Below are positions 1,911-33,890 of a DNA stretch of 36,066 nucleotides, piece by piece; position 1 is the stretch's first letter, and every line of letters starts with the position of its first letter. The notes under the pieces were generated by a model, which worked only from the letters and a program-made list of their open reading frames with translations, did not search any database and had not been told where the DNA came from. A program made the position numbers and the translations under genes. The stretch covers positions 1 to 36,066 of the IMG/VR virus record IMGVR_UViG_3300017917_003570. The stretch is one strand, 5' to 3'. Origin of the DNA: a virus.

Positions 1911-2176
1911 AAAAAGACTTGCAGTCACAATAGCCGGCGCCATGGTGGTGCCGGTCAGCAAGACCGTCCTTTCCCGATTTGCCGGCGGGTCCCCCGATAT
2001 GGCCCGCCGGCAGCCCGGACCGGACACTTCCCGACTGCCGCTGGCGCAGGCCAGCCGGACGCCCCCACGGACGGGGGAAGCGGGCGACCCGCCGCCGGGC
2101 CTATCCGGACCACCGGACCCCATGGCGATGCGGCCTCTCGATCGCGAGCAACGCAATTCATGCTCGGAGATCGAAG
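1911..2176 (+). promoter_or_regulatory. Hairpin-rich leader between scaffold and capsid genes
   Basis: This is the only long gap in the late operon. Six inverted repeats follow one another: 1934-1941/1947-1954 (8 bp, one G-U), 1981-1989/2003-2011 (9 bp), 2062-2066/2073-2077, 2080-2084/2088-2092, 2104-2108/2113-2117 (5 bp each), and a two-part stem 2138-2150/2161-2174. The last stem holds the capsid Shine-Dalgarno GGAG (2166-2169). I see no convincing protein in any frame. It may set capsid level by RNA processing, transcript stability or translational masking. The hairpins are seen; the role is inferred. Confidence 0.5.
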
Positions 2177-11900: not shown

Positions 11901-12192
11901 GCCCTATCCCGAATTGCGCGGCGACGGCACGCCGCTGGTGGTGCGCATCCAGGACGCGCTCGCCGCCGCACCGCCAGACGCGGCCCCCGCCCGCGCCAGC
12001 CCGGAGCAGATCTGGCAGCGCATGAACCATGACCGTCGCCGGCCGCTTTCCGCGGCCGATGCCGCCGACCTGACGGTCCGCCGCAGCGAAGCGCCACCGG
12101 ACCCGCAACCGCCGCCACCGCCGCGCCCCGCCCGCGCCCCCGTGCGACAGCCGATCTATGGGCCCGATCCGGCGGAAGCCACTTCCCCATGA
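8953..12192 (+). CDS. Internal virion protein with lytic transglycosylase domain
   Basis: A 1,079-residue ejection protein. The first 450 residues are long Ala/Arg/Glu helices. Residues about 455-565 form an SLT lytic transglycosylase domain: F-G-T-E-S-G-G-N with catalytic E479, then A-T-G-A-A-Q-I-L-P-S-T-A and A-Y-N-W-G-S-G near 550. The C-terminal half is helical and ends in a Pro-rich tail. This combines the wall-digesting role of T7 gp16 with the tube-forming architecture of gp15: it is ejected to breach peptidoglycan and extend the channel. Its start overlaps the gp14-like stop by one base; its stop overlaps the next ATG (ATGA). Confidence 0.88.
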   Translation: MPARLPPAPDFVSRALPEPAPVPTEGGVAGQVLTNLSERIDGMLAQRNRTLDRRAEQRAFDAGIAAGEGQPGAQMTGGGELYRSAFNRGADEASRNRLEISARYEFERLARQHAANPEAFGAAVTEWRDAQLSTLPENLRVRLAPSLDNIARPYLSVIVQQQDRAVADERLGSFQVLLPQRLGEITRLAERGLADPEAQTRIAEVRAQTERDLIALGPRHAFTFNGRSYPADPSRAGAYSLVQIARHLNESQDAELEGLARGEWRRSPRTEAWITEFEDRGVRGDIPGLRPEQARSLAAAFRRERGQERAAASEGQREARRDLQPTLDANRAAYLETGAPIETISDERLQAAGIDVRTHRAQETTWRNAWQARQDLNGMTDPAGAQAVADRFAPGTALFAADPQLAVRIREEARQRGARIAAASLDQALRDGVASLTAGGAAAVRNARAVPEAWMPYIQAGAQRHGLPVYMLRAQFGTESGGNARAVSPAGATGAAQILPSTAANPGMGMAPLPAEALTDPARALPWAIELMARLRDRYNGNLEYALAAYNWGSGHVDRWIAAGADRSRLPRETQQYVSIMMAAAHVEGVTGPGGDPRAGPPGSPGTSATMPPLIPPEQARAAGMSPEEMARANAQAEEMIRASRIRELVRTGTPEERAAAEAQLSAIGPRAHEDQQLSRVWAETYAERQRGIRDDAAAYFAQFSPAMQQMQQRVMQGDLAALPQLIATVGAEQERQQVPEAQRRVLPQNVMQGLVQHVMQPAQEAERLPRLQRILAAVPDPDQRQALLSGLAAAELPAHLATAAAIAPRTGGATSARIAAELSTDIRSLHLTAALTRDIRTQVRTAWAASDAAGGLRAEQYNHTGNAQFFSRAAEDEARLQHVVSVRAAPAGAVTAATVTGAYRDLYGGVEPVNRDGVLALLPRGGDVDRLARGLATIRDRALAERYPGTERAAVTARTATANGGRWIDVAPGLLAFFPPGSPYPELRGDGTPLVVRIQDALAAAPPDAAPARASPEQIWQRMNHDRRRPLSAADAADLTVRRSEAPPDPQPPPPPRPARAPVRQPIYGPDPAEATSP

Positions 12193-14678
12193 GCGACACG
12201 GCATTGAGCTATCTCGGCGCGCCGACCATGGGCCTGCCCGTGGACGCGGCCGGCCGGCTGATCGAAGAGTTCCGCAGCCCGCTCGGCCAGTTCCTTGGCG
12301 CCGCCGCCGGCGAGAACTTCTGGGCCACCATCGCCGGCCAGGTCCGGGCGGATGATCGCGTGCGCCTGGCCGAGCGCACCGCGCCGGAACCCGAACTGGC
12401 GCCGATGCCCGAAGACGAGTGGCGCAGTTCGGAACACTTCCGCGAAGGCGTGCCCTATCGCCGCGGCATGACCCGCGCCGCGGCGCGCGTGCTGGCCGAC
12501 GTATCGGACGAGCAGCGCGAGCGCGAGCGCATCCTGGGGTCGCGCCACGACTGGGGCAGCGCCGCGCTCGCCTTCGGCGCGGGCATCGTCGGCTCCCTGC
12601 CCACGCCGGAGAACTTCCTGCCCTTCGCCGGCCCGGCGCTGGAGGCAGCGCGCGCCGGCTATCTCGGCCGCCGCTTCGCGCAATTCGCCGCATCGGCGGA
12701 GGCCGCGCGCACCGGCGGGGCCGGCGCCCGTGCGGCCTTCGGCGCCGGCGCCGGCGCGATGGACGCCACGCTCGGCACCGCCATCGCCATGCCGATGGTC
12801 AATGCGGGACGCGCATCCTTTGGCGACGATGTGACCTGGTCCGAGATCGCGCTGGACCTGGCGCTGGGCTTCGCCGCCGGCGGCGTGCTCGGCGGCGCGA
12901 TCGGCGCGGCCATTCCCGCCCGGCGCGCGGGCGCCCCGGCGGGCGCCAGCGGCGCCGAGACACCCCTGGCGGCCCTGCCGCCCGTGCCGGCGCAGGACGC
13001 CGCCCTGCACGCCATGACAGCCGGCGCCGTGCAACTGGCCGAGGGCGGGCATATCGACCTGAGCCTGACGCCGCCCGCCGTCCGCCAGCAGCTGGAGGGG
13101 TTGCTGGCCGAGAACCGGCGCCTTCAGGCAATGGTCCTGCCGACGGCCGAGGACGGCGCGGGCGTCTCGGCCCGCACCGCTGCCCGCGTTCCGGTGGGCG
13201 CCGCGGCCGCGCGTCCGGGCGCTGAAGGCAGGGCATCCACCCCAGCCGGGACCGAGGTGAGCTTCCGCTATGAGGTGGTCGAGGCGGCCGATCTGGTGCC
13301 CAGCCACGACCCGCTGAGTTTCGCCGAGAACCCCGCTTTTCCGCAGGAACTGCAACCGCGCGACCGCAACCTGCCGGAGCGCCAGCAGCAGGTCCGCGAC
13401 ATGGCGGCCAGGCTGCGCCCCGAGGAGCTGGAGGCATCGGCCAGCACCACCACGGGCGCGCCGCTCATCGGCCCCGACGGCCTGGTGGAAAGCGGCAATG
13501 GCCGCACCATGGCGATCGTCAACGCCTACGCCCAAGGACTGCCGACCGCGCAGGCCTATCGCGCCAGCCTGGTGCGTGCCGGCTTCGACCAGGCGGCGAC
13601 GATGCAGCGCCCGGTGCTGGTGCGCCGCCGCACGTCGGAACTGACGCCCGACGCGCGCCGCCGCTACGTCGAGGAAAGCAACGTCGCGCAGATCGACCGC
13701 GCCACGGCGGCCGAGCAGGCGCGCACCGATGCGCGCCGCGTGACGCTTCCCATGCTGCAAATGCTGCGCTCGCCCGACCTGGCCGCCGCCGGCAATGGCG
13801 ATTTCGTGCGCGCCTTCATCGGCCAGCTGCCTGCCGGCGAGGCTCGCGATCTGTCCACCAAGGGCGAGCTGACGCCGGACGGCCTGGCGCGTATCCAGCG
13901 CGCGCTTGCCGCCAGGGCCTATCAGAACCACCAGCTGATCCAGCGCCTGACACAGAGCCGCGAGGGCGCGGCCGAGGCCATGGGCCGCGCGCTGATCGAC
14001 GCCGCCCCCGCCATCGCGCATCTGCGCGCCGCGGTCGAAGCCGGCCAGGTGCGTGCCGGCCTGGACGCGACCGATGCGCTGGTGCGCGCGGTGCGCCGCA
14101 TCAACGATGCCCGCGACGCCGGCAAGCCGCTGCGCAGCGTGCTCGACCAGCTCGACATCTTCGGCGACGATGCCAGCCCGGCCGAGCGCGCCTTCCTGGA
14201 ATTGCTGTTGCGCCACCCGATCCGCCAGGAGATCGGCGGCCTCGGCCGGGAAACCATCGCCGCGCGACTGGAGGCCTACGCACGCCACGCCTTGGAGGCA
14301 CCGCAGACGCCGGACGCCTTCGGCATGCCGCCGCCTGGCCTCGGCGACGTGCTGCGCGCCGCCTTTCGCGAGGCGGGCCTGGACCCGCCAGCTGCGCTTC
14401 GCGGGCTCGACGCCGACACCTACACCCCGCCCGCCGCGCCGCCCCCCGAACCGTTGGCGCCGATGCGCAGCGCCGATCCCGTTGCCGCGGCCGCCGAACG
14501 CATGGGCCTCGACATCGAGGGGGCGGCCCATCTGGCCGAGGCCAACCGCCTGGCCGAGCGCGGCGATCTGCCGGACGACCTGCGCGCTATGCTCGACGAG
14601 ACCGCCGAACTGCGCGCCAAGGTCGAACATGCCGACGAAAGCTGGCAGGCCGCGGCGGCCTGCGTGATCAGGGGCTGA
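12189..14678 (+). CDS. Giant internal virion protein with DdrB/ParB-like polyvalent domain
   Basis: An 829-residue protein between two other large ejection proteins and coupled to the first by ATGA. Residues 1-240 are helical with glycine/alanine-rich hydrophobic stretches (for example about 220-242) that could enter membranes. Residues about 357-455 match my memory of the DdrB-like ParB-superfamily domain of phage polyvalent proteins: Q389-P-R-D-R, then G-A-P-L-I-G-P-D-G and E434-S-G-N-G-R-T. The rest is helical. It may be injected with the DNA and act on DNA or nucleotides on entry. The domain call needs a profile search; the ejection role is inferred from position. Confidence 0.72.
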   Translation: MSDTALSYLGAPTMGLPVDAAGRLIEEFRSPLGQFLGAAAGENFWATIAGQVRADDRVRLAERTAPEPELAPMPEDEWRSSEHFREGVPYRRGMTRAAARVLADVSDEQRERERILGSRHDWGSAALAFGAGIVGSLPTPENFLPFAGPALEAARAGYLGRRFAQFAASAEAARTGGAGARAAFGAGAGAMDATLGTAIAMPMVNAGRASFGDDVTWSEIALDLALGFAAGGVLGGAIGAAIPARRAGAPAGASGAETPLAALPPVPAQDAALHAMTAGAVQLAEGGHIDLSLTPPAVRQQLEGLLAENRRLQAMVLPTAEDGAGVSARTAARVPVGAAAARPGAEGRASTPAGTEVSFRYEVVEAADLVPSHDPLSFAENPAFPQELQPRDRNLPERQQQVRDMAARLRPEELEASASTTTGAPLIGPDGLVESGNGRTMAIVNAYAQGLPTAQAYRASLVRAGFDQAATMQRPVLVRRRTSELTPDARRRYVEESNVAQIDRATAAEQARTDARRVTLPMLQMLRSPDLAAAGNGDFVRAFIGQLPAGEARDLSTKGELTPDGLARIQRALAARAYQNHQLIQRLTQSREGAAEAMGRALIDAAPAIAHLRAAVEAGQVRAGLDATDALVRAVRRINDARDAGKPLRSVLDQLDIFGDDASPAERAFLELLLRHPIRQEIGGLGRETIAARLEAYARHALEAPQTPDAFGMPPPGLGDVLRAAFREAGLDPPAALRGLDADTYTPPAAPPPEPLAPMRSADPVAAAAERMGLDIEGAAHLAEANRLAERGDLPDDLRAMLDETAELRAKVEHADESWQAAAACVIRG

Positions 14679-19230: not shown

Positions 19231-19322
19231 GGGCCAGAGTTGGATAGCGCATTGAGCGCGCTCGTTTTCAGAGCGCACTCTTAATCAGCGGGTCCAAGGT
19301 TCGAGTCCTTGTGCGCCCACCA
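19231..19322 (+). other. tRNA-Lys(CTT) remnant carrying attP
   Basis: The 3' part reads as a good tRNA: anticodon loop CTCTTAA (CTT, Lys), variable region, T arm CAAGG/CCTTG around TTCGAGT, acceptor strand TGCGCCC and ACCA. Upstream, AGTTGGATAG resembles a D loop, but neither a D stem nor an acceptor 5' strand (GGGCGCA expected) is present, and a foreign hairpin (19258-19263/19271-19276) occupies the anticodon-stem region. So this is not a working tRNA. It looks like an attachment-site copy with a decayed 5' half. Confidence 0.75.
19277..19322 (+). other. attP core (identity to host tRNA-Lys 3' half)
   Basis: From the anticodon loop to CCA the sequence fits an intact tRNA-Lys(CTT) 3' half of about 46 bp, the usual crossover segment for a tyrosine integrase targeting a tRNA gene. 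Insertion would restore the host tRNA. The integrase gene begins at 24214 and ends at 22889, so about 3.5 kb of accessory genes lies between attP and int, more than is usual. The core edges are inferred because no host sequence is available. Confidence 0.75.
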
Positions 19323-19363
19323 TAATTTCCGGGGCTTTGTCCCGTGAACACCACAAGAACGAG

Positions 19364-19394
19364 AGTTGGACGTCCAACTAGCCGACAGTTGGAC
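19364..19394. repeat. AGTTGGAC repeats beside attP (possible integrase arm sites)
   Basis: AGTTGGAC occurs at 19364-19371 (+), 19372-19379 (-, forming a perfect 16-bp palindrome with the first) and 19387-19394 (+). The cluster is 42-72 bp from the attP core, a distance and arrangement that suit arm-type sites for the integrase N-terminal domain. The palindrome also spans the stop of the leftward 64-residue gene and could end that operon. Function is inferred. Confidence 0.45.
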
Positions 19395-20519: not shown

Positions 20520-21683
20520 ATGTCGTTGTCCGTCGGCTCCGTCTGTTCAGGCATTGGCGCACCGGAGTGCGCATGGGAGCCGCTGGGCTGGCGCTTCGCG
20601 TGGTCGGCTGACATTGAGCCATTCCCCAACGCCGTCCGCGCGCACCACTGGCCGCACGTCTCGAACTTGGGCGACATGACCGCCATCGCCGCCCGCATCG
20701 AAGCGGGCGAGGTCGAGGCGCCCGACGTGCTGGTGGGCGGCACCCCCTGCCAGTCCTTTTCCGTCGCCGGCCTTCGCAAGGGCCTAGCCGACGCCCGTGG
20801 CAACCTCGCGCTGGAGTTCATCCGCCTTGCTGATGCAATCGACGCTGTTCGACGCGCTGCTGGAAAGCCGGCTGCCTGGATTCTCTGGGAAAATGTCCCA
20901 GGCGTCCTCTCCGATGCCGGAAACGCCTTCGGCGCCTTCCTGGCGGGAATGGTCGGAAGCGATGCCGCCATCAGCCCGCGCGGACGGTGGACAGACGCGG
21001 GTGTGGTTCATGGACCCACGCGATGCGCCGCATGGCGCATCCTGGACGCCCAGCACGTCGGACTGGCTCAACGACGGCAGCGGGTCTTCATGCTCGCTCG
21101 CGGAGGTGCTGGAGCCTGGTCCGCCGCCGACGCGCTACTTCCTGTCATCCCGCGCGTGCGCTGGCATCCTGCGCCGCGCCGAGAAGCGCGGGAAGCAGTT
21201 GCCCGCCCAATTGCTGCGGGCTCTCCAGGCGGTAGTGGCTACCGCAACGACGCCGACACAGCCGACAACCTGATTGCGGCTTTCGGCGGCAACAACACCG
21301 CCGGGCCCATCGACGTGGCCGCCGCGCTCAACGCCTGCCCCACGGCCGCCGGGCGGCAGGACTTTGAGAGCGAGACGTTCATCACCGAGCTGGCGCCAAC
21401 CCTGCTCGCGAACGGAAAAGCCGCCGGCAGCGCGACGCAGCAGGATGCCGAGACGGAGCGGCCAGAGGGCGCCGCAGTCGGACATTTCATACCAGCCGCG
21501 ATGGCGGTGCGCCGCCTGACGCCGACCGAGTGCGAGCGGCTGCAAGGTTTCCCCGACGGCTGGACGGCCGTGACCTACCGCAACAAGCCCGCCGCCGACG
21601 GTCCGCGCTATCGCGCTCTCGGCAATTCCATGGCCGTCCCGGTCCTCGCGTGGATCGGGCGGCAGATCGAACTTTTCCGCTAA
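20520..21683 (+). CDS. DNA (cytosine-5) methyltransferase
   Basis: A 387-residue C5-MTase that transfers methyl from SAM to cytosine in a specific site. Motif I is V-C-S-G-I-G-A-P-E (residues 8-16). Motif IV is G-G-T-P-C-Q-S-F-S with catalytic C77. Motif VI is E-N-V (124-126), motif VIII Q-R-R-Q-R-V-F (184-190), and motif X G-N-S-M-A-V-P-V near the end, with L-Q-G-F-P-D before it. All needed motifs are present. As a lone phage enzyme it probably protects phage DNA from host restriction; no restriction partner is visible. An AAGGGG sits only two bases before the ATG. A second ORF is nested in another frame across residues 105-251. Confidence 0.92.
   Translation: MSLSVGSVCSGIGAPECAWEPLGWRFAWSADIEPFPNAVRAHHWPHVSNLGDMTAIAARIEAGEVEAPDVLVGGTPCQSFSVAGLRKGLADARGNLALEFIRLADAIDAVRRAAGKPAAWILWENVPGVLSDAGNAFGAFLAGMVGSDAAISPRGRWTDAGVVHGPTRCAAWRILDAQHVGLAQRRQRVFMLARGGAGAWSAADALLPVIPRVRWHPAPRREAREAVARPIAAGSPGGSGYRNDADTADNLIAAFGGNNTAGPIDVAAALNACPTAAGRQDFESETFITELAPTLLANGKAAGSATQQDAETERPEGAAVGHFIPAAMAVRRLTPTECERLQGFPDGWTAVTYRNKPAADGPRYRALGNSMAVPVLAWIGRQIELFR
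20833..21273 (+). CDS. Nested gene inside the methyltransferase (second frame)
   Basis: A 146-residue ORF lying wholly within the methyltransferase gene. Its product carries Y-F-L-S-S-R-A-C-A-G-I-L-R-R-A-E-K-R-G-K followed by Q-L-P, preceded by S-L-A-E-V-L-E-P-G. I recall that block from separate small phage proteins found with cytosine methyltransferases. So both frames appear to code. No strong ribosome site precedes the ATG at 20833; an upstream in-frame start at 20797 is possible. Function unknown, with a basic helical C terminus that could bind nucleic acid or the enzyme. Confidence rests on the motif, not on codon analysis. Confidence 0.55.
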   Translation: MQSTLFDALLESRLPGFSGKMSQASSPMPETPSAPSWREWSEAMPPSARADGGQTRVWFMDPRDAPHGASWTPSTSDWLNDGSGSSCSLAEVLEPGPPPTRYFLSSRACAGILRRAEKRGKQLPAQLLRALQAVVATATTPTQPTT

Positions 21684-22674: not shown

Positions 22675-22892
22675 GCCGGCGCCCAGTTAGGCAGCTTGGT
22701 CGGGTCGCCGCCGTCCGGGACTTCCAGACGCAGCTCGCGCACGGGCCGCCCTTCCGCGTCCCGGTCCCAATATTCGACGAACCGCCACTTCCGCCCGCCT
22801 AGAATTGCCGCTGTGCCGCGGGTGTAGTGCAGCGACGTGGTGCCGATGGTTTCCTGCCGACTGCTACCCGGAATATTGCGCACGACCTTCAT
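22671..22892 (-). CDS. Small unknown protein downstream of integrase
   Basis: A 73-residue, beta-prone protein (T-I-G-T-T-S-L-H-Y, then W-R-F-V-E-Y-W-D-R-D). Its ATG overlaps the integrase stop (ATGA at 22889-22892), so it is probably co-translated with integrase. No motif is recognised. Coupling to int might mean a role in recombination control, but nothing in the sequence proves it. Confidence 0.6.
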   Translation of the reverse strand: MKVVRNIPGSSRQETIGTTSLHYTRGTAAILGGRKWRFVEYWDRDAEGRPVRELRLEVPDGGDPTKLPNWAPA

Positions 22893-24214
22893 CCCTGATC
22901 CCCCTCCGCCGCCAGGCGCTTGCGGAAGGCGCCCTCGGCGGCCTTGGCGGTGCGGACGATGTAGTGCCGGTCCAGGATGCTGCGCACGCTCGCCGGGGTG
23001 TGGCCGGTGATGCCGGCGATGCCGTTGTCATCGACGCCCGCCTCATGCAACCGGGTCACCGCGGTGTGGCGCAATTCCATAAAGCGGAGATCCCCGCAGG
23101 CGGGCATAGGCTCCAAAGTGAAGCGGGTGAGTTGGGCGGGTGGGTTAGCCAACTCACCCGCCCGGGACAGATCGGACATATCCGACAGATCCGATCTGTC
23201 CCGTTCGATCTGCTCTCGCAACTCAATCCCTGTGGCAGCGGCGGCGCGCACTGCGCTGAAAACGTGGCGGAAGGTGTGTTCATTCCAGCGCTCGCCGGTG
23301 CCCTCATGCAGCAGCAGATACGCGCGGGCATCGGCATGCGGCAGGGCCACCACCTTGGCGGCGTCCCGCCGTGCGGCCTCGGCGCGCAGGCGCTCGACCA
23401 GGTGGGGGACCAGGTGCACGGGCAGGCTGACCAGCCGGCCCGTCTTGCCCTGGCGGATCACCAGGTTGTCGGCTTCCACCCGCCAGGGCGGCAGGCGCAG
23501 CACGTCGCCCTCGCGCTGGCCGATCCATTCGTTGAGCAGGATCGCCGTGCCCATGCTGCGCCAGCCCAGCCGATCGGCGGCCTCGGCCATGTGGCGCACG
23601 GCTTCCGGCGACCACAGCACCGGCTCCCGCGCGCGGCGCAGGCTGATGCCGGGGCGCTCGGCCGGGTTGCTGGTCAGGTAGCCGAGGCGCCGGCCCACGC
23701 CCAGCAGCAGGCGCAGCACGCGCACGGCAGCGGCGGCCTTGGCCGGGGTCTCGATCACCTGGCGCTTGCGGCCCGTGCCTTCCACGCGCCGCAGCTGGCC
23801 TTCGTAGAAAGCCTGCACCGCGGGCGGCGTGATCGCGCGGGCGGGCATGTCGCCGGCCCAGGCCTCGATCGCATCGAGTGCCCAGCCGTAGTCGCCGCGC
23901 GTCTTGGGCGCGAGCTTCGACCACCAGCGGCTGGCGCGGTAATCCTGGATCAGCGCGGCGACGCTGCCTGCCGGGTGCTTTCTGGCCCGGGCCTTGACCG
24001 GCGCCGGCGCGTTCGGCGCCACCTCGCCACGGCGCCAGGCGTCCACATCGGCATTCAGCGCCTCGGCGCGGGCGATCGCGGACTCGAGCGCATCGGGCAG
24101 GCGCTCGGGGCGCCAGCCCTCGGCGGCGAGCGCGGCGGCGGGTTGCCAGTAGTAGCGCACGCCGCCCCGCGCGCCGCGACGTTCGACCAGGTGGCGGATT
24201 TTTTTCGTGGCCAT
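22889..24214 (-). CDS. int: Tyrosine recombinase (phage integrase)
   Basis: A 441-residue integrase that joins attP with the host tRNA-Lys attB. The N-terminal 70 residues form the arm-binding region, about 83-185 the SAM-like core-binding domain, and about 200-430 the catalytic domain. Catalytic set: R234 (G-Q-R-E-G-D), K257 (Q-G-K-T-G), R382 (M-E-L-R-H-T), H405 (I-T-G-H-T) and nucleophile Y418 (D-R-H-Y-I). The usual His three residues before R382 is Met379. Residues about 332-372 are an extra segment with S-D-L/S-D-M/S-D-L repeats, encoded by two DNA hairpins. The excisionase-like gene lies just upstream. Confidence 0.92.
   Translation of the reverse strand: MATKKIRHLVERRGARGGVRYYWQPAAALAAEGWRPERLPDALESAIARAEALNADVDAWRRGEVAPNAPAPVKARARKHPAGSVAALIQDYRASRWWSKLAPKTRGDYGWALDAIEAWAGDMPARAITPPAVQAFYEGQLRRVEGTGRKRQVIETPAKAAAAVRVLRLLLGVGRRLGYLTSNPAERPGISLRRAREPVLWSPEAVRHMAEAADRLGWRSMGTAILLNEWIGQREGDVLRLPPWRVEADNLVIRQGKTGRLVSLPVHLVPHLVERLRAEAARRDAAKVVALPHADARAYLLLHEGTGERWNEHTFRHVFSAVRAAAATGIELREQIERDRSDLSDMSDLSRAGELANPPAQLTRFTLEPMPACGDLRFMELRHTAVTRLHEAGVDDNGIAGITGHTPASVRSILDRHYIVRTAKAAEGAFRKRLAAEGDQG
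23123..23202. repeat. Two adjacent perfect 13-bp hairpins inside int
   Basis: The first stem pairs 23123-23135 with 23149-23161 around a 13-base loop; the second pairs 23164-23176 with 23190-23202, also around 13 bases. Only two bases separate them. They encode residues about 338-364, in a segment absent from usual integrases just before the R382 motif. Matching stem and loop lengths suggest an inserted palindromic element kept in frame. Confidence 0.8.
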
Positions 24215-24238: not shown

Positions 24239-24505
24239 CTACGCGGCCAGGCTGGCCTGCGCACGGCGCACCAGCTCGGCCTCCATGCCCGCCAGGTCCT
24301 CGGCCGCGCGGGCCGTGGCGCTGGCGGGGTCCTGGCGCGCGATCCAGCGTTCGACCGCGGCCAGATCCCACACCGTCCCCAGCCCCGGCAGAGGCTGGGG
24401 GAAGCCGTGCTCCGCCACAAGCCGCGCGCGGCGGCAGTGGAAGGCGCGCACGGTCAGGCCGAGCAGGGCAGCCACCTGCGCCGCCCGGCCGCCGCGCGGT
24501 GTCAC
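24239..24505 (-). CDS. Excisionase-like (AlpA/MerR-type) DNA-binding protein
   Basis: An 88-residue winged-helix-type protein: A-A-Q-V-A-A-L-L-G-L-T-V-R-A-F-H near the N terminus, G-F-P-Q-P-L-P-G-L-G-T-V-W-D at the wing, and V-E-R-W-I-A. This is the form of phage excisionases and AlpA regulators. They bend att DNA and turn integrase toward excision. The GTG start at 24505 overlaps the upstream stop (GTGA). The integrase follows 24 bases downstream. Confidence 0.75.
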   Translation of the reverse strand: MTPRGGRAAQVAALLGLTVRAFHCRRARLVAEHGFPQPLPGLGTVWDLAAVERWIARQDPASATARAAEDLAGMEAELVRRAQASLAA

Positions 24506-24789
24506 GACACCACCGCGCCGACGCGGGCGAGCAGCGTCACGCCGGCCGTCGTAGCGCTGATGCAGCGGCGCCGCCGGTCCTCACCATCCGTCACGCGATC
24601 GACCAGGCGGTGATCGGCCAGCCGATCGATGGCCCGCATGACCGCCGGCTTGCTGATGCGGCAGGCGGCGGCGATATCCAGCACGGACTGGCCGGGATGG
24701 CGCTGCGCATGCAGCAGCACGGCCAGCTGGCGGAGCGTATAATCGGCGCCGGATTGCACCAGCGTCAGGCATCCATCGGCGAAGGTCAT
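24502..24789 (-). CDS. MarR-like winged-helix regulator
   Basis: A 95-residue protein with Y-T-L-R-Q-L-A-V-L-L-H-A-Q near residue 18, the recognition helix region V-L-D-I-A-A-A-C-R-I-S-K-P-A-V-M-R-A-I-D-R-L (as separate short blocks: V-L-D-I-A-A and S-K-P-A-V-M-R-A-I-D), and a wing D-G-E-D-R-R-R-R. This is the MarR-type wHTH pattern but shorter than MarR, without the dimer arms. The ATG at 24789 overlaps the upstream stop (ATGA). It may tune the integration operon; target unknown. Confidence 0.72.
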   Translation of the reverse strand: MTFADGCLTLVQSGADYTLRQLAVLLHAQRHPGQSVLDIAAACRISKPAVMRAIDRLADHRLVDRVTDGEDRRRRCISATTAGVTLLARVGAVVS

Positions 24790-25046
24790 GCCGCGGCTCC
24801 CCCGGTCACGGGCAGGCCATGGCGGCGCTGCGCGCGGGCGATGTCCAGCCGGGCGATGCCGGCGGGCAGCGTGCCGCAAAGCGGCGGCGGCACGGGCTGG
24901 TCCTCCATGGCAGCGACCTGCGCGGCCAGCGTGCGGAACTCGGCGGACAGCAGCTGCGCCACCCGCGGTTCCATCACCGTGGGGGTGCGCTCGGCCCCCC
25001 AACAGGCGAAGTATTCGGCGAAATTCGCCAGTTGCGTCGATACCAT
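24786..25046 (-). CDS. Unknown first protein of the integration operon
   Basis: An 86-residue protein. ATG 25046 is chosen because GGAGG lies about nine bases upstream; an in-frame ATG at 25106 would fall within the promoter and operator. A helical N terminus (L-A-N-F-A-E-Y-F-A-C-W-G) and a Pro-rich middle (Q-P-V-P-P-P-L-C-G) are visible. No family recognised. It overlaps the MarR-like gene by ATGA. Confidence 0.55.
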   Translation of the reverse strand: MVSTQLANFAEYFACWGAERTPTVMEPRVAQLLSAEFRTLAAQVAAMEDQPVPPPLCGTLPAGIARLDIARAQRRHGLPVTGGAAA

Positions 25047-25408: not shown

Positions 25409-25774
25409 TTATTTCGCCGCGCGCCGAGGCGCCGGCGTGGCAGCGGGCGCGGCGTCCGCCAGATGCTGGCTGATGCGTTCCCGGACATCCCACCGAAGCG
25501 CGCCATCGACGCCGTAAAACACAAAATCCGAAGTGACCTGCAGGATCGGCAGGATGCGGCCGAGCTGGTCCACGCGCGGGCGATTTGCCCCTCCCTCCCA
25601 GTTGGCCAGCGTGGATGTGCTCAGACCCGCGGCATTCGCCAGCGCGGTGGGAGAAAGACCGGCCGCCAGGCGGGCAGCAACAAGCCGGCGCCCCACCGCG
25701 ACGAGATCGAGCGCCGCCAGTTCAAGGTCGCGGCCAGTGCGCACATCAATCATGCGAATAATGATAGCACTCAT
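25409..25774 (-). CDS. XRE-family repressor (CI-like)
   Basis: A 121-residue repressor. The HTH_XRE domain spans about residues 25-88: V-G-R-R-L-V-A-A-R-L-A-A-G-L-S, then A-L-A-N-A-A-G-L-S-T-S-T-L-A-N-W-E. The C-terminal part is short and Ala/Pro-rich with no S24 peptidase domain, so classical RecA-stimulated self-cleavage is not expected. The ATG at 25774 is chosen; an in-frame ATG at 25753 is possible. It diverges from a Cro-like gene across two operator sites, the standard switch layout. Confidence 0.78.
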   Translation of the reverse strand: MSAIIIRMIDVRTGRDLELAALDLVAVGRRLVAARLAAGLSPTALANAAGLSTSTLANWEGGANRPRVDQLGRILPILQVTSDFVFYGVDGALRWDVRERISQHLADAAPAATPAPRRAAK

Positions 25775-25789
25775 GCCGCCTGAACTCCG

Positions 25790-25829
25790 CTCAGCAGAAC
25801 GGAAGCTTGACATCTTCCGAAATTCTGAG
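25790..25829. promoter_or_regulatory. Repressor operator sites D and C
   Basis: Site D (25790-25804, inverse strand TTCCGTTCTGCTGAG) and site C (25815-25829, TTCCGAAATTCTGAG) share the YTCCG-N5-CTGAR motif with sites A and B. They lie between divergent repressor and Cro-like genes, 25 bp centre to centre. C fills the early promoter spacer; D sits before the repressor start and could autoregulate it. Confidence 0.7.
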
Positions 25830-25835
25830 CAAGCC
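25807..25835 (+). promoter_or_regulatory. Early rightward promoter (PR-like)
   Basis: A perfect -35 TTGACA (25807-25812) is followed by a 17-bp spacer that contains operator C. The -10 position (25830-25835, CAAGCC) matches the consensus poorly, so activity may be weak or need a host factor. The Cro-like gene starts at 25843, allowing only a very short leader. Confidence 0.5.
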
Positions 25836-25842
25836 TCCCGCC

Positions 25843-26139
25843 ATGGCGTCCCTTCCCTCCGCGTCGGACCTGCGCGCCGTGGTCAAGGCCCTTGGCGGCC
25901 CGGGCGTGGTCGCGCGCGCCCTCGGCACCTCGGGCCCCAATGTCGGCAACTGGCAGATCGCCGGCGAGGTGGCGGCCAGCTGGCGGCTGGAATTCTGGCG
26001 GCTGTGCGCGGCGCGTGGCATCGCGTGGCATCCCCCCGGCTTCGAGACCGTCAGGCTCGTCGTGACGGAAGCCGCAACGGTCCCGCGCGATTGTGGCGAA
26101 ACAACGGAGCCCCTTTCGCAACCGGGGCGCGCGGCATGA
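25843..26139 (+). CDS. Cro-like helix-turn-helix protein
   Basis: A 98-residue protein. L-G-G-P-G-V-V-A-R-A-L-G-T-S-G-P-N-V-G-N-W-Q near residues 17-37 (helix, turn, recognition helix) has the form of YdaS/Cro-type regulators. W-R-L-E-F-W-R-L-C-A-A-R-G-I-A-W-H and P-P-G-F-E follow, also typical. It is the first gene under the early promoter and opposes the repressor. A TTG start at 25807 is in frame but coincides with the -35 box. The stop overlaps the next ATG. Confidence 0.75.
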   Translation: MASLPSASDLRAVVKALGGPGVVARALGTSGPNVGNWQIAGEVAASWRLEFWRLCAARGIAWHPPGFETVRLVVTEAATVPRDCGETTEPLSQPGRAA

Positions 26140-26501: not shown

Positions 26502-26946
26502 TGCGCGCGCCGCCTTGCCCGGCCGTCCTGTCTGCTGCCCTCGGCGCGGGCGCGGCGCGGCGCCGTTTCACTCCCGCGCCCACAACCGGGGATAGCGATC
26601 ACCGGGCCGGCGCCGAGGGGCCTTCGCCGCCGGGTTGCGGGTCCGGGGGTGAAAATCGTGGAATATCAACGCTGTCACGCATGTCACGCAGTGTCACGCT
26701 GAGCTGTGACAGGATTTCGCCAGCCGGATCAAGGGCTTGCGCGATCTGTCACGCTTGTCACGCTTGGGGAGGCCTCACGTGCGCGCGCGCTGGTGCGCGC
26801 GGGGTTTGCGTGACACTCGTGACACGGGGGAAAAAGCGTTCAAGAACAAGGGCTTGGGCGCAACGCGGCCGCGTGACAAGGCGTGACAGCGCGTTACAGC
26901 GTTGGAAGGGCTCGTTTTTTCGGCTTTATGCCGTGGCGGTGCGGGC
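26502..26946 (+). other. Non-coding early region holding the iteron-like array
   Basis: Between the second early gene and the 26947 gene lie 445 bp without a convincing protein. The open frame at 26498-26950 is Arg/Cys/Gly-rich and reads the repeats as C-H-A-C-H-A-like strings. The stretch contains ten TGTCACGC-type elements and two purine or T tracts (near 26828-26850 and a T6 at 26914-26919). A replication origin or packaging signal is the leading idea. Confidence 0.6.
26673..26898. repeat. Opposed TGTCACGC iteron array (candidate replication origin)
   Basis: Forward TGTCACGC is at 26673, 26682, 26692, 26747 and 26756. Inverse copies are at 26808 (GCGTGACA), 26817 (TCGTGACA), 26871, 26881 and 26891 (GCGTTACA). 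Copies within a group are 9 or 10 bp apart, close to one helical turn, as for cooperative protein binding on one DNA face. The left half is all forward and the right half all inverse, giving a large dyad centred near 26785. Primase and helicase genes follow. Confidence 0.75.
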
Positions 26947-27447
26947 GTGAGCGGCGGCGGGCAGTCGCCGCAGGCGGCCTATGACGAGCGCCAGCGCGCG
27001 GAGCGGCGGGCCGTGGCCGAGGCCGCGGCGGCCAGCCTGCCCGCGCCGGCCGAGCAGCCGGCGCTGCTGCCCGAGCTGCCCGCGCCGCGCGCCGGTGGCC
27101 GGCCGAAGGGCGCCAGCAGCCGGTCCACGCGCGAGTGGGTGCGCTTCCTGATCGAGACCAAGGGCTCGCCGCTGGAGGAGCTGCTGCGCATCGGCTTCAG
27201 CGACCTGGAGGCGCTGCGGCGGGAGATCGGCGCGGACACCAGGCTGGAGGCGTTCGACCGGCGCCTGACCGCGCTGCGCGAGGCGCTGCCCTACCTGCAC
27301 CAGAAGCTGCCGCAGGCCATCCAGATCGAGGGCGCGCCGCTGATGGCGGTGCAGATCGCGGTGTCGCCGGCGCTCGCCGAGCGCCTGGCGCAGCGGCCGG
27401 TGACAATCGAGGCAGATCAAGGGGTTGGCGAGGGAGAGCCGGCATGA
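26947..27447 (+). CDS. Conserved phage DNA-binding-like protein (possible small terminase)
   Basis: A 166-residue protein. It has a basic G-G-R-P-K-G-A-S-S-R-S-T-R-E-W-V-R-F-L motif near residue 52, then S-P-L-E-E-L-L-R-I-G, and L-P-Y-L-H-Q-K-L-P-Q-A-I-Q near 115. The G-R-P-K-G...W...L-x-x-Y-L-H-Q-K combination recurs in prophage proteins that I have seen near packaging or replication genes. It could be a small terminase or an iteron-binding initiator; it directly follows the iteron array. The GTG at 26947 lacks a clear ribosome site, and an in-frame TTG at 26902 is an alternative. Confidence 0.65.
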   Translation: MSGGGQSPQAAYDERQRAERRAVAEAAAASLPAPAEQPALLPELPAPRAGGRPKGASSRSTREWVRFLIETKGSPLEELLRIGFSDLEALRREIGADTRLEAFDRRLTALREALPYLHQKLPQAIQIEGAPLMAVQIAVSPALAERLAQRPVTIEADQGVGEGEPA

Positions 27448-27752
27448 GTTGGACGGGTGCGAGTTGGACGGGTTGCGGGCAATGCCCGTTGCTGCCGCGT
27501 CTCCTGCCTGCCCGGCCGCTGATTGCGGATCAGCCGGCCCGCGCCGCCGCCGGCGCGCCGCACCCCCGGGGGGTCGCGCGCCGGCCCCCCCGTGCCCCCG
27601 CCCCCCCGGGCACCCCCGCCCGCCCGCGCGCCCGCTTGTCCGCCCCTGCGCACGGAGATTTTCACGCGAAAACAGGACCCGCTCCGCGGGCGGGGAAGGG
27701 AAAACAACCTCGGCTCCGCAGCGGGGCCAGGGGAAAGGGGCGCGGGCGATGA
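27444..27752 (+). CDS. Doubtful Pro/Arg/Ala-rich ORF
   Basis: A 102-codon ORF whose ATG overlaps the upstream stop (ATGA, 27444-27447) and whose stop overlaps the next ATG (27749-27752). Exact coupling at both ends favours a gene. The product, however, is low complexity (Pro, Arg, Ala, Gly) with an S-W-T-G-A-S-W-T-G repeat at the start and no fold I know. The DNA is C-rich (runs of C near 27580-27610). Alternatively this is a 300-bp spacer. The start covers two AGTTGGAC repeats (27447, 27462). Confidence 0.35.
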   Translation: MSWTGASWTGCGQCPLLPRLLPARPLIADQPARAAAGAPHPRGVARRPPRAPAPPGTPARPRARLSAPAHGDFHAKTGPAPRAGKGKQPRLRSGARGKGRGR

Positions 27753-28126
27753 GCGGCGGCCGGCCCTGGACCGATGCCGAGCGGCTGATGGTCCGCCAGT
27801 GGGTCGAGGCGGGGCGCGGCCGCGGATGGACCGTGAAGCAGAGCTGCACCGCGGTTGCCAAGATGCTGGCGCCGCGCACGGCGCGGGCGATCCAGCAGGA
27901 AGCCTATCGCCTCGGCATTGCCCAGCGCCTGCCAGCACCCGAGCCGAAGCCGCGCCGCAGCCAGGCCGGGAAGGAGCGCAAGCCGCAACAGGTGATCCGG
28001 CCGGGCCCGGCGATCCGGGCCTGCCTGACCTGCCGGCATAGCTTCACGCCAGAAGACCGCTTCGATTTCGTCTGCGACGGGTGCGAGCGCAGCCGCGCCT
28101 GGCGCTACGGGGCGGCGCTGGCATGA
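27749..28126 (+). CDS. SANT/Myb-like plus zinc-motif DNA-binding protein
   Basis: A 125-residue protein. The N-terminal W-T-D-A-E-R-L-M-V-R-Q-W and R-T-A-R-A-I-Q-Q-E-A-Y-R-L-G-I resemble a Myb/SANT- or GcrA-like helix-turn-helix. A basic linker leads to two Cys pairs, C-L-T-C and C-D-G-C, about 20 residues apart, forming a likely zinc knuckle. Early position before primase suggests DNA replication or transcription control. AGGGGAAAGGGG lies upstream. Its stop overlaps the primase ATG. Confidence 0.68.
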   Translation: MSGGRPWTDAERLMVRQWVEAGRGRGWTVKQSCTAVAKMLAPRTARAIQQEAYRLGIAQRLPAPEPKPRRSQAGKERKPQQVIRPGPAIRACLTCRHSFTPEDRFDFVCDGCERSRAWRYGAALA

Positions 28127-29190
28127 GCGAGCGCCGGCTGCACTCCGTCCCCGAGATCGCCGAGCTGCTGAACGCGCAGATCCAGGCGCTGGTGGAGGAG
28201 CTGCTGCCGGCCGGCCGGCGCGAGGGCCACGAGTGGCGCGTCGGCTCGATCGCCGGCGAGCCCGGGCAGAGCCTTGGCGTGCATCTGCAGGGGACGCGGC
28301 GCGGCGTGTGGCGGGACTTCGCCGGGCCGCCGGACCATCAGGGCGACGCGCTCGACCTGGTCGCGCAGGTGCGCTTCGGCGGGAACAAGAGCGAGGCGCT
28401 GCGCTGGGCGCGCGCCTGGCTCGGCCTGTCCGGCGCCAACCCGGCCGCCTTCGGGCGGGTGCCGGCGGCGCGGCCCGAGAGGCCGGACCATGCCGAGCTC
28501 GACCGCGAGGGCAAGCGGCAGAAGGCCATAGCGCTGTGGCTGCAAGGCCAGCCCATCGAGGGCACGCCGGTGGAAGCCTACCTTGCCGCGCGGGGCATCG
28601 ACCTGGCCGCGCTCGGCCGCGTGCCGCGCGCGCTGCGCTTCCTGCCGAACGCCTGGTGCCAGGAGGCCGAGGGCCAGCTGCCGGCGATGGTGGCCGCGAT
28701 CACGCGCCGCGGGCATCACGTCGCGACGCATCGGACCTATCTGGCCGAGGAGCGCGGCACCTGGCGCAAGGCGCCGCTGCGCAAGGCGAAGAAGGTGCTC
28801 GGCGCCTATGCCGGCGGGATCATCAGCCTGGTGCGCGGGCCATCCGGCAAGCCGCTGGCGCAGGCGCCGGACGACGACCAGGTGGCGATCGCCGAGGGCA
28901 TCGAGGACGCGCTGACCGTCGCGCTGCACGAGCCGACGCTGCGCTGCCTGGCCTGCATCAGCCTGTCCAACATGGCCGCCGTCGAGCTGCCCGAGCGGCT
29001 GGCCGACGTGGTGCTGGTGTTCGACCGCGATGGCGAGAACCCGCAGGCCCGCGCGGCGCGGGAGCGCGCGGTGCGCACCTTCCTGGAGCAGGGGCGCAGC
29101 GTGCGGGAGGTGCGCCCGGCCGAGGGCTTCAAGGACTTCAACGCCTGGCACCAGGCGTTGCGGGACCAGGGAAAGGGACACGCCGCATGA
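28123..29190 (+). CDS. Toprim-domain DNA primase
   Basis: A 355-residue protein. The N-terminal part has a G-V-W-R-D-F-A-G block and G-D-A-L-D-L-V-A, usual in the zinc-less/CHC2-like front of phage primases. A Toprim-like C-terminal half has V-A-I-A-E-G-I-E-D-A-L-T-V-A (catalytic Glu in A-E-G near residue 262) and V-V-L-V-F-D-R-D-G-E-N (metal-binding D-x-D near 300). It makes primers for phage replication. ATG 28123 overlaps the upstream stop. The helicase-like gene is farther down in the same operon. Confidence 0.85.
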   Translation: MSERRLHSVPEIAELLNAQIQALVEELLPAGRREGHEWRVGSIAGEPGQSLGVHLQGTRRGVWRDFAGPPDHQGDALDLVAQVRFGGNKSEALRWARAWLGLSGANPAAFGRVPAARPERPDHAELDREGKRQKAIALWLQGQPIEGTPVEAYLAARGIDLAALGRVPRALRFLPNAWCQEAEGQLPAMVAAITRRGHHVATHRTYLAEERGTWRKAPLRKAKKVLGAYAGGIISLVRGPSGKPLAQAPDDDQVAIAEGIEDALTVALHEPTLRCLACISLSNMAAVELPERLADVVLVFDRDGENPQARAARERAVRTFLEQGRSVREVRPAEGFKDFNAWHQALRDQGKGHAA

Positions 29191-30237: not shown

Positions 30238-30461
30238 GCGAGAAGCTGCCGCTGCCCTACACCTTCGCCAGCCATTCCTGGCACTGCATCGCCTGCGGTG
30301 CCGCCGGCGAGGACGAGCAGGCGCGGCCGGCCATCTGCCCGCAATGCGGCTCGGCCTACACCGAATATGCCGACACCTGGGATTACGGCGATGACGAATG
30401 GCTCGGGAACGAAGTCACCCCGGCCGACGCGCCCGACGCCCCGGCGGCGCCAGCCCCATGA
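30234..30461 (+). CDS. Small zinc-ribbon protein
   Basis: A 75-residue protein with H-C-I-A-C-G and I-C-P-Q-C-G, two Cys pairs 17 residues apart that form a rubredoxin-like zinc ribbon. An acidic tail (D-Y-G-D-D-E-W) and a Pro/Ala-rich end follow. Such proteins often bind nucleic acid or a polymerase partner. ATGA overlaps join it to both neighbours, the ATPase gene being next. Confidence 0.7.
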   Translation: MSEKLPLPYTFASHSWHCIACGAAGEDEQARPAICPQCGSAYTEYADTWDYGDDEWLGNEVTPADAPDAPAAPAP

Positions 30462-32257
30462 GCGAGAAGGTCACCCCGATCCGCGGCGCGCTGGCCGAGG
30501 CGCAACCCTCGCGGCGCAAGCGCGGCAGCATCGGCCTGCCGGAGGACTGCCCGGTGACGGCGCTCGGCTCCGATCCCGACAACGCCTACTTCCTGAACGC
30601 CGTCGGCATGTTCCAGCAGGTGCCGATCAAGAGCTTCGCCGGCAACCAGCTGATCGGGCTCTACGCGCCGCAGATGACCTGGCTGGAGAAGAACTGGCCG
30701 CGCTACGACAAGGAGGGCAACCCGATGCCGGGCTCCTTCGACGTGCGCAAGGCCGTGGTGAGCCATATCAGCGCCGCGCGCGACGAGCCCCACTGGCGCG
30801 GCGAGGACTGCATCCGCGGCCTTGGCGTCTGGCCGGGCGAGGATGACGACCTGGTGGTCCACCTCGGCAACACCTTGCAGGTGCGCGGCCAGCGCGAGCG
30901 CCCGGGCCGGCGCGATGAATTCGTCTATCCGGTGCGGCACAACCGCGCGCCGCCTTCCATCCATCGCCAGCCCGCCGGCGCCGAAGGCCCGGGCGAGCAG
31001 CTGCTGTCCCTGCTGCGCTGCTGGCGCTGGCGCCGGCCGGAGGTCGATCCCATCCTGCTGGCCGGCTGGATCGCGGCCGCATGGCTATGCGGTGCGCTGC
31101 GCTGGCGGCCGCAGGCCTGGCTCGCCGGCCAGCGCGGCACCGGCAAGTCCACGCTGATGGAAACCATCGCGCTGATCCTGCACCGGGGCGAATATGCCCG
31201 GCTGGTGGCCGATGCCTCGGCGCCCTCGATCCGGGCGGCGCTGATGCACGACGCGGCGCCGGTGCTGCACGACGAGGCCGAGCCGAGCGAAGACAACACC
31301 CGGCTCAACGCCAAGATCGAACTGATGCGGCTGGCGGCCAGCGGCGGACACATCATGCGCGCCACGGTGGACCAGCAGGTGATCATGCAGCAGGCGCGCT
31401 TCATGGCGCTGCTCGCTTCCGTCATCCGGCCGCCGCTGAAGGCGCAGGACGCCAGCCGCATCGTCTTCCTGGACCTGGTCCGCAACCCGGGCGCCCGCGC
31501 GCCGGACATGCGGCAGGATGCGCTGCGCACGCTCGGCCAGCAGATCTTCCGCCGGATGGTGGATGGCTGGCACGATTTCCGCGCCCAGCTTCCCACCTGG
31601 CGGGATGCGCTGATCGCCCGCGGCATGGATGCGCGCGGCGCCGACCAGTACGGCACGTTGCTGGCCGCCGCCGACCTGCTGCTGCACGACGGCGCCCCGG
31701 ACAGCGACACGCTCGATAAATGGGCCAGCGCCTGCGCCACCGCGACGCAACAGGAACGCCAGGAAGAGCGGCCGGAATGGCGCTGGTGCCTGGACCACCT
31801 GACATCGTCCATCGCGCCGCAATGTCGCAGCGGCGACCAGAAGGCGATCGGCGCGCTGGTCGCGATCGCGGCCGGGCGCGAGGTGATGACCGACGAGCAT
31901 GGCAAGCCGAAGCGCCCGCATGGCGGCGACCGCCAGGACGCGGCGCGGGCGCTGGCGACGCTCGGCCTGCGCTGGATGCCGCGGGTGGAGAACCATCGCG
32001 TGCTGGTGGATGCCGAGCACAACGAGATCGGCACGCTGGCGGTGGCCAACGCCAATGCCGGGCTGGGAGCGGTCTATCGCGGCACGCATTGGGCGCCGCG
32101 CTCCGGCGCCTCCGGCGGCTGGAAGACGGCGCTCGAGCAGGCGCCCGGCGCGGCGCCGGCCGGAAGCATCCGCTTCGGGGGCGTGACCAGCCGGGCCGTG
32201 CTGGTGCCGGTCGGGCTTGTGCTGGACGGCGGCGAAGGCGAGGGGGCCGACGGATGA
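30458..32257 (+). CDS. Replicative ATPase / helicase-like protein
   Basis: A 599-residue protein. Walker A is G224-Q-R-G-T-G-K230-S-T; Walker B is P-V-L-H-D272-E273. A conserved S-G-G-H-I-M-R-A-T and R-I-V-F-L-D-L follow. The layout (N-terminal domain of about 200 residues, then a P-loop core) resembles DUF927/VirE-type or superfamily-3 phage helicases that unwind the origin with primase. The ATG at 30458 gives an ATGA overlap; the frame is open upstream without coding character. Whether it is a true helicase is not settled by the motifs. Confidence 0.78.
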   Translation: MSEKVTPIRGALAEAQPSRRKRGSIGLPEDCPVTALGSDPDNAYFLNAVGMFQQVPIKSFAGNQLIGLYAPQMTWLEKNWPRYDKEGNPMPGSFDVRKAVVSHISAARDEPHWRGEDCIRGLGVWPGEDDDLVVHLGNTLQVRGQRERPGRRDEFVYPVRHNRAPPSIHRQPAGAEGPGEQLLSLLRCWRWRRPEVDPILLAGWIAAAWLCGALRWRPQAWLAGQRGTGKSTLMETIALILHRGEYARLVADASAPSIRAALMHDAAPVLHDEAEPSEDNTRLNAKIELMRLAASGGHIMRATVDQQVIMQQARFMALLASVIRPPLKAQDASRIVFLDLVRNPGARAPDMRQDALRTLGQQIFRRMVDGWHDFRAQLPTWRDALIARGMDARGADQYGTLLAAADLLLHDGAPDSDTLDKWASACATATQQERQEERPEWRWCLDHLTSSIAPQCRSGDQKAIGALVAIAAGREVMTDEHGKPKRPHGGDRQDAARALATLGLRWMPRVENHRVLVDAEHNEIGTLAVANANAGLGAVYRGTHWAPRSGASGGWKTALEQAPGAAPAGSIRFGGVTSRAVLVPVGLVLDGGEGEGADG

Positions 32258-32397
32258 TCGACCGGATGCTGGGCTTCGCGCTGCTGCTGACCGTCGCGGC
32301 CATCATCGCCGGGCTGGCGACGGCGCCGCGGCCCCCGGAGGCGCGCTGCGCCGGCCTGACCGTGCTGCCAGCCTGCGCGGAGGCGCTGCGGCATTGA
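32254..32397 (+). CDS. Very small membrane or secreted protein
   Basis: A 47-residue ORF: a hydrophobic segment (M-L-G-F-A-L-L-L-T-V-A-A-I-I-A-G-L-A-T-A) then a short tail with two Cys. It overlaps the helicase stop (ATGA) and the terminase TTG (TTGA). Exact coupling at both ends supports a real gene; function unknown. It could be a single-pass membrane peptide. Confidence 0.55.
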   Translation: MIDRMLGFALLLTVAAIIAGLATAPRPPEARCAGLTVLPACAEALRH

Positions 32398-33890
32398 CCG
32401 GCGCACCCGTTCCGCTGACCTGGCACCCGCCTGGCCCCGTGGCGCAGGCCTTCGTCGAGGACATCGACACGCCGATCACGCTCTGCATGGGGCCGATCGC
32501 CGGCGGCAAGACCACGGCCGGGCTGATGAAGGGCATGGTCCACAGCTACGCCTGGCCGATCGGCCCGGGCGGCGTGCGGCGGTGCAAATTCGGCATCATC
32601 CGCCGGCTCTACAAGGACCTTGAGGCGACCACCATGAAGTCGTGGAACGAATGGTTCCCGCGCTCCATGGGTGTCTGGCGCGGCGCGGCAGGCGATCCCG
32701 CGACGCATGAGCTGCGGCTGGCGCATCCGCAGGACGGGCTGCCGATCGAACTGACCGTGCAATTCATCGCGCTGGGCGACCAGCGGGTCGAGGAAGCGAT
32801 GCGCGGCTGGGAGGGCAGCTTCGCCTATATCGACGAGATCGACCTGATGGCGCCGAACACGCTGGCCTGGGTGTGGTCCCGCTGCAAGCGTTTCCCGAAG
32901 GAGACGCTGGAGACCAACCCTCAGCGGTGCTGGGCATCCTGCAACGCGCCCGATTTCGACAGCTGGGTGGTGAAGGACTTCATGGAGGAGCCGCGCCCCG
33001 GCCATCGGCTCTACCGCCAGCCCGGCGGGCTGGAGCCGGACGCCGAGAACCTGGCGGTGCTCGGCCCGAACTACTATCGCGACCTGGCCGCCGTGCTGCC
33101 CGCCGACGAGAAGCGCCGGCTGGTGGACAACATGCCCGGCATCAGCCGATCCGGCGCACCGGTCTATCCCGAATACAACGACGACTGGCATTTCAGCGCC
33201 ACGCCGCTCGACGTGCTGCCCGGCCGTCCGCTGATCATCGGCATGGATGCCGGCGGCACCCCGGCGGCGGTGATCTGCCAGCGCGCGCCGGATGGCCAGT
33301 GGCGCGTGCTGGCCGAGCTGACCACCCACGAGAAGATCATGGACAGCGTGACCGGCCCCAACCGCTTCGGCGAGATGCTGGCCGAGATCATGGCCGAACG
33401 CTTCCGCGGCATGAAGGCGCATGCCATCGCCGACCCGTCCGCCGGCCACGGCGCCGACACCGCGAATGGCGAGGCCAGCTGGATCGACATCGTCGGGCGC
33501 GTCGCGCGCATCCCGGTGCAGCCGGCGCCGACCAATGACCCGACGCCACGGCAGGAGGCGCTGCGCCTGCCCATGAAGAACACCATAGATGGCCGGAAAT
33601 ACGGCCTGGCCATCGACCCGTCCTGCCGCGCCGTGCGGCGGGCGCTGGCGAAGGACTACATGTTCCCCTTCATCCGCGGCGCCGGCCAACTGCGCCGCGC
33701 CGACCAGCCGCTGAAGAACTGGGCCAGCCACCTGATCGAGGCGCTGCAATACGCCTGCCTCGACGGCGGCGCCTATCACGAGGTCATGGCGCGCGGCCAG
33801 GCGCGCGACCGTGCCAAGGCCGCGGTGCGCAGCGCCAGCGCGCCGTGGAACCCCTGGACCACCCCCCATCCGCAAAGGATCACCGCATGA
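32394..33890 (+). CDS. terL: Terminase large subunit
   Basis: A 498-residue packaging motor. The ATPase domain has G-P-I-A-G-G-K39-T-T (Walker A) and F-A-Y-I-D147-E148 (Walker B). The RNase-H-like nuclease has I-I-G-M-D285-A-G-G and, farther on, A-I-A-D-P-S. A C-terminal N-W-A-S-H-L-I-E-A-L-Q-Y is typical. It packages DNA into the head through the portal. The start is TTG at 32394 (TTGA overlap with the upstream stop); a longer frame exists upstream but has no coding character. The rare start may lower its level. No small terminase stands next to it. Confidence 0.92.
   Translation: MTGAPVPLTWHPPGPVAQAFVEDIDTPITLCMGPIAGGKTTAGLMKGMVHSYAWPIGPGGVRRCKFGIIRRLYKDLEATTMKSWNEWFPRSMGVWRGAAGDPATHELRLAHPQDGLPIELTVQFIALGDQRVEEAMRGWEGSFAYIDEIDLMAPNTLAWVWSRCKRFPKETLETNPQRCWASCNAPDFDSWVVKDFMEEPRPGHRLYRQPGGLEPDAENLAVLGPNYYRDLAAVLPADEKRRLVDNMPGISRSGAPVYPEYNDDWHFSATPLDVLPGRPLIIGMDAGGTPAAVICQRAPDGQWRVLAELTTHEKIMDSVTGPNRFGEMLAEIMAERFRGMKAHAIADPSAGHGADTANGEASWIDIVGRVARIPVQPAPTNDPTPRQEALRLPMKNTIDGRKYGLAIDPSCRAVRRALAKDYMFPFIRGAGQLRRADQPLKNWASHLIEALQYACLDGGAYHEVMARGQARDRAKAAVRSASAPWNPWTTPHPQRITA

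Follow-up and report, generated by a model that had tools for sequence, protein, structure and literature searches.

An array of short iterons at positions 26673 to 26898 of the window, which is an entire IMG/VR virus record (36066 bp, 71% GC), is very probably the replication origin of this phage, with the phage's own AAA+ helicase (30398 to 32257) as its initiator. No binding or replication data bear on this proposal. What we observed is the array and its dyad, its conservation with a helicase family, a concerted switching of its unit among relatives, and a statistical coupling between the unit and the helicase C-terminal domain. A sequence-only reading of the same DNA had offered two guesses, an origin or a cooperative regulator site, and the first is now well supported by the conservation of the array, by helicase-linked arrays at about 63 of 78 surveyed loci, by covariation with the C-terminal domain and by a layout like that of satellite origins.

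Genome context and architecture of the array

Counting from the array, the gene order is TerS-like protein, SANT-like CxxC protein, Toprim/DUF7146 primase, small genes, AAA+ helicase, TerL and head-tail adaptor (portal-type), and a CI-like repressor and a Cro/YdaS-like gene lie ahead of the array. The genes that matter here are the following.

22889 to 24214, minus strand: tyrosine-recombinase-like (integrase-like) ORF; Pfam match slightly under the cut-off
25409 to 25813, minus strand: CI-like HTH repressor
25807 to 26139, plus strand: Cro/YdaS-like regulator
26947 to 27447, plus strand: TerS-like protein of 166 aa; among 37 phages with this family its gene mostly comes directly after the array
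27749 to 28126, plus strand: small protein with a SANT/Myb-like segment and a CxxC motif; SANT likeness judged by eye, no family match
28081 to 29190, plus strand: Toprim/DUF7146 primase
30398 to 32257, plus strand: AAA+ helicase (phrog_21086 / phrog_35358), proposed self-loading initiator
31754 to 32254, plus strand: helicase C-terminal domain, about residues 453-619, proposed iteron binder, with R592 in a predicted beta-hairpin wing
32217 to 33890, plus strand: terminase large subunit (TerL)

Assignment of the helicase to the P-loop AAA+ proteins relies on a conserved Walker A motif (GQRGTGKST) together with matches to phrog_35358 and phrog_21086, one of which has no functional name; the Pfam AAA_16 match was only weak. 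The window encodes its own TerL, portal and tail proteins and thus lacks the dependence on helper particles that marks a satellite. The presence of the integrase-like ORF makes the phage plausibly temperate, and the temperate label of the sequence-only reading is supported by this ORF together with the CI-like repressor and the Cro/YdaS-like gene. Elsewhere the window holds a MarR-family regulator ORF (24502 to 25002, minus strand), an unusual phage cargo; an 829-aa protein, encoded among the virion genes (12189 to 14678), that carries a ddrB-like ParB domain; a DNA methyltransferase ORF (20520 to 21683); and, just past the tail-fibre gene, a small group of AGTTGGA(C) repeats facing both ways (19238 to 19394, score 9.7).

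The array itself lies in a 445-bp non-coding island, between an upstream ORF stop at 26501 and a downstream start at 26947, and comprises the following elements.

26673 to 26898, no strand: iteron array and proposed replication origin, dyad centre near 26785; non-random and kept in relatives
26673 to 26699, plus strand: outer left triple of exact TGTCACGC units, at 26673, 26682 and 26692
26704 to 26711, minus strand: inverse unit CTGTGACA within the left half; an inverse is also found in L008, L011 and L013
26727 to 26743, no strand: ATCAAGGGCTTG element, conserved in relatives, with a degenerate direct repeat at 26844 to 26860
26747 to 26763, plus strand: inner left pair of exact TGTCACGC units, 9 bp apart (26747, 26756)
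26780 to 26802, no strand: GC-alternating dyad centre; in relatives CGCGCGC elements flank the centre
26808 to 26824, minus strand: inner right pair, one exact (26808) and one TGTCACGA (26817)
26859 to 26866, plus strand: degenerate twelfth site CGCAACGC, inferred; mirrors 26704 to 26711
26871 to 26898, minus strand: outer right triple, exact at 26871 and 26881 and TGTAACGC at 26891

The island, the ten units exactly where they had been placed and the 9-10 bp spacing inside groups all agree with the sequence-only reading. Its description of five forward copies followed by five inverse ones was right about the ten units but overlooked the inverse copy at 26704 to 26711; because this CTGTGACA lies within the forward half, the array is not strictly five forward and five inverse. 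At the position mirroring CTGTGACA we sought and found the degenerate forward unit CGCAACGC, which carries three mismatches and, having been searched for at that position, is an inferred site; the equivalent position in Bdellovibrio phage phi1422 also carries a degenerate unit. With both sites added the order becomes FFF R FF / RR F RRR, split at the dyad, and the six mirror pairs all have midpoints between 26785.0 and 26785.5. Each half of the array also contains one copy of GATCAAGGGCTTGCGCG (26727 to 26743 and 26844 to 26860, a repeat at 88%), and this repeated GATCAAGGGCTTGCGCG/ATCAAGGGCTTG element may be the site of a second protein.

Other origin-like properties were mixed. GC skew, proposed earlier as a check, gave a raw cumulative minimum beside the array (26587, 86 bp away), but after detrending the minimum moved to 22913, away from it. 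Of the arrays in the survey described below, 72% contain a 30-mer that ranks within the top 5% of its locus for AT content, with the caveat that non-coding DNA is generally AT-rich; in the window this element is weak (53% AT, rank 0.13).

Arrays in close and distant relatives

Absence of the array from close relatives would have counted against an origin, but all close relatives with a contig spanning the site have kept it. In these phages, whose helicases are about 58% identical to that of the window, the island again separates Cro from the TerS-like gene, and its layout is preserved, with linker elements (ATCAAGGGCTTG, CGCGCGC flanks) that are still recognisable. Their units differ from TGTCACGC but are largely uniform within each array: TGTTACGC in L002, L003, L005 and L010, and TGAAACGC in L008, L011 and L013. 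Such a constant layout with wholesale respelling is expected if a single protein with drifting specificity reads all the sites. In a comparison of the TGTTACGC and TGAAACGC groups, identity is 80-84% for the helicase, the primase and the TerS-like protein, against about 57% for the Cro and CI proteins and 50-56% for the SANT-like protein, the fastest-changing protein of the replication cluster between unit types. L005 has two CI-like repressors in tandem (1764 to 2527, minus strand), whereas the window has one. A nucleotide search of the 445-bp island among phages returned no match, a genome-contig scan with the helicase alignment found no relative, and matches to the pattern CGCGCGCATGTAATG in L015, L016, L017, L020, L021 and L024 were dismissed as chance.

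Helicases only about 23-33% identical are also accompanied by arrays, built from other units. In phi1422, an array with ten copies of TGTTACC starts 10 bp past the primase-helicase gene, 7.5 kb from TerL, and its twelve sites follow the same order of orientations as those of the window. Array units in other phages were TGTGAGC (MinM1), TGTAACA (Acjo_20), TGTAAGC (KLER1-1), GGTAGCG (ST4, 5.6 kb from the primase), GGTAACG (MT835930, with a CGCGCG centre) and GGTTCTG (MT835534). A chance pattern match also turned up an array of the same design, TTACACT/TATTACACTT, in the AT-rich contig L018 (4680 to 5046), where it adjoins a gene for an 879-aa CHC2 primase-helicase. Several loci, among them most of the ~90-kb myoviruses tested, had no array near the helicase; PBb002 and five myoviruses of about 90 kb had none within the stretch examined.

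For a family-wide survey, a profile scan yielded 577 related IMG/VR loci, of which 80 were kept and 78 analysed. A two-orientation array score of at least 9 was reached at 65 of the 78 helicase loci, compared with none of 78 Markov-shuffled loci. Since two of the 65 (L104 and L114) proved to be ordinary tandem repeats, genuine two-orientation arrays number about 63. L081 was counted through its second-ranked cluster, its top-scoring repeat being an ordinary tandem repeat, and all three loci were left out of the covariation statistics. About 30 tandem six-bp copies (ACGGCT) lie at 3557 to 3760 of the L081 phage contig and are probably coding. The surveyed arrays often start 0-50 bp after the helicase stop codon and otherwise within a few kb, and typically contain 12-13 sites in about 250 bp (median 13), most commonly split six left and six right; the unit is spelled in many different ways among loci. 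An inner inverted pair-of-pairs was present in 47 of 60 phages, where a permutation null gave a mean of 7.5 and a maximum of 15; orientation symmetry across the family did not exceed chance (17 versus 11.9).

The reader of the unit and competing readings of the array

In partial Mantel tests on 60 phages, the array unit tracks the helicase C-terminal domain when the other helicase regions are controlled (r=0.185, p=0.003), and the association is also seen for the winged part of that domain (r=0.222, p=0.0015). The N-terminal, middle and motor regions showed no correlation with the unit once the C-terminal domain was controlled (motor, r=-0.014). For the 37 phages with both proteins, the winged part remained associated with the unit given the TerS-like protein (r=0.339, p=0.001), whereas the TerS-like protein given the winged part did not (r=0.064, p=0.21). 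R592 had the strongest unit association of 521 helicase columns (r=0.416). R599 and S590 likewise scored high, and an AlphaFold model of the C-terminal domain (63 sequences, pLDDT 91.9) places all three in a terminal beta-hairpin. These effects are modest (r about 0.2), and label permutation leaves some phylogenetic structure. Only six of the 25 most unit-associated helicase columns fall in the C-terminal domain, and among the 30% closest pairs this domain predicts the unit no better than the motor does. The covariation supports binding of the iterons by the C-terminal domain, although no binding was measured.

This domain is probably a winged helix. Modelling of the whole helicase with three sequences was of low confidence (pLDDT 33). 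Foldseek found no significant match to the domain in the PDB, and VIA-align gave DNA-binding proteins as best matches but with Z scores of at most 3.9, too weak to rely on; its list contained neither P4 alpha nor a SaPI Rep domain, which does not exclude kinship with the P4 domain. A BFVD search returned only two matches, both helicase-sized phage proteins. Of the two other proteins suggested earlier as binders, the TerS-like product of 26947 is less likely, since controlling for the helicase removes its covariation with the unit. The SANT-like product of 27749 is also less likely; it diverges unusually between unit types, and a family-wide test of it was impossible.

The main rival to the origin reading is a pac-type packaging site bound by the TerS-like protein. 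Proximity speaks for it: the TerS-like gene follows the array in the 37 phages with this family, mostly within 5-100 bp; array, TerS and TerL are often consecutive; and in the window clade the TerS-like gene (26947 to 27447) stays beside the array even though TerL is 4-5 kb distant. We nevertheless consider a packaging site unlikely, because the covariation between unit and TerS vanishes with the winged domain controlled while the reverse association holds, and because phi1422, L094, L097, L105-L107 and L115, in which no member of this TerS family was found, have the array right next to the helicase gene and TerL 3-7.5 kb off. The AT-rich element, too, suits an origin better. A little less likely still is a cooperative operator for a CI/Cro-like, SANT-like or other regulator of the replication or late operon. 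The array does sit between the CI/Cro-like switch and the operon, and the SANT-like, CI and Cro proteins are those most divergent between unit types. Yet the unit tracks the helicase C-terminal domain; the CI-Cro intergenic region lacks units except for one single-mismatch match at 25805; phi1422 and many others have the array after the helicase gene, without that switch-and-operon setting; and a search of the array's surroundings gave no sigma70-type promoter, a weak test at 71% GC.

With its short iterons in two groups, the array could be likened to centromeres of the ParR/Omega type. A partition centromere or other structural site is nonetheless highly improbable: the phage has an integrase-like ORF, a partition pair was not identified, and the array is linked to a helicase. 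That the array is a chance repeat in GC-rich DNA can be regarded as already refuted. Ten TGTCAC cores fall within 230 bp, where 300 Markov shuffles of the window gave at most three; the arrays of relatives, the survey and the pair-of-pairs null also speak against it, and nothing was found in favour of chance.

Proposed mechanism and relation to known replicons

For the array as an origin, we propose that initiation would fall to the phage's AAA+ helicase itself, with the 7-8 bp unit recognised by its C-terminal domain, which is probably a winged helix. On the inverted half-arrays, ideally with six sites apiece, two helicase hexamers would be loaded in head-to-head orientation over the dyad; these hexamers would melt the DNA, and the neighbouring Toprim primase could then start bidirectional synthesis. 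Binding, hexamer loading, melting and bidirectional replication at the array are all inferred, and the 6+6 mode is, by inference, compatible with two hexamers.

This scheme has a precedent in satellites. The iterons bound by SaPI Rep helicases lie just downstream of the helicase gene; binding is through the C-terminal domain and apparently involves two hexamers (PMC7581432). The layout of the window array matches the PICI/SaPI satellite origins of PMC6092414, a paper that ran a plasmid maintenance test for EcCICFT073. A 2018 paper described the satellite pri-rep-ori organisation as known in no other bacterial replicon. The phages described here differ in being tailed phages of full size that carry terminase, portal and tail genes themselves, in a helicase without D5_N, Pox_D5 or DUF5906 above Pfam cut-offs and, in the window clade, in an origin that lies upstream, beside the TerS-like gene. 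The window does not have its array immediately 3' of the initiator gene but 3.5 kb ahead of it, a point against the origin reading; in many relatives the 3' placement holds (0-350 bp downstream). Two inverted sets of sites are present in the window as in the 47 phages noted above, with an AT-rich element that is clear in most relatives and weak in the window. Because the helicase shows no D5_N, Pox_D5 or DUF5906 above those cut-offs, we class these phages as working like satellite replicons and not as members of that group.

Phage P4 offers a similar combination of Toprim primase, helicase and origin binding, with 8-bp iterons that face both ways at intervals of about 9-10 bp and a crr directly after the alpha gene. 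It differs in its unit (TGTTCACC), in having two separate sites (ori and crr) about 5 kb apart, and in an alpha protein that matches D5_N, DUF5906 and Pox_D5, none of which is found above the Pfam cut-off in the window or its relatives. The same array scan recovered P4 crr and ori as a positive control. Kinship of the helicase C-terminal domain with P4 alpha was not detected (hhalign probability 0.2%, no profile match). Phage lambda shares the order of repressor, Cro and replication genes and the combination of iterons with an AT-rich element. Its iterons lie within the initiator gene O, and it depends on the host helicase, whereas the array is non-coding in the window and its close relatives, and there was no sign of an O-like protein. 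Iteron plasmids likewise have tandem iterons read by an initiator of diverging specificity; here units of 7-8 bp, spaced 8-10 bp apart, form an inverted dyad that is probably read by an AAA+ helicase. We found no earlier description of such origins in phages in the open-access literature.

These results suggest that an origin design said earlier to be unique to satellites is widespread among full-size tailed phages, and they provide a testable origin and candidate initiator for a large phage group whose replication start was unknown. The roughly 60 natural pairs of domain and site variants may allow a recognition code to be derived, which could be tested by domain swaps. Whether the phages form a large undescribed class, with satellite-type origins for self-loading helicases (6+6 sites, two hexamers), units that switch with the helicase wing, groups of distinct replication specificity and perhaps a role as a source of satellite replicons, is in our judgement evenly balanced.
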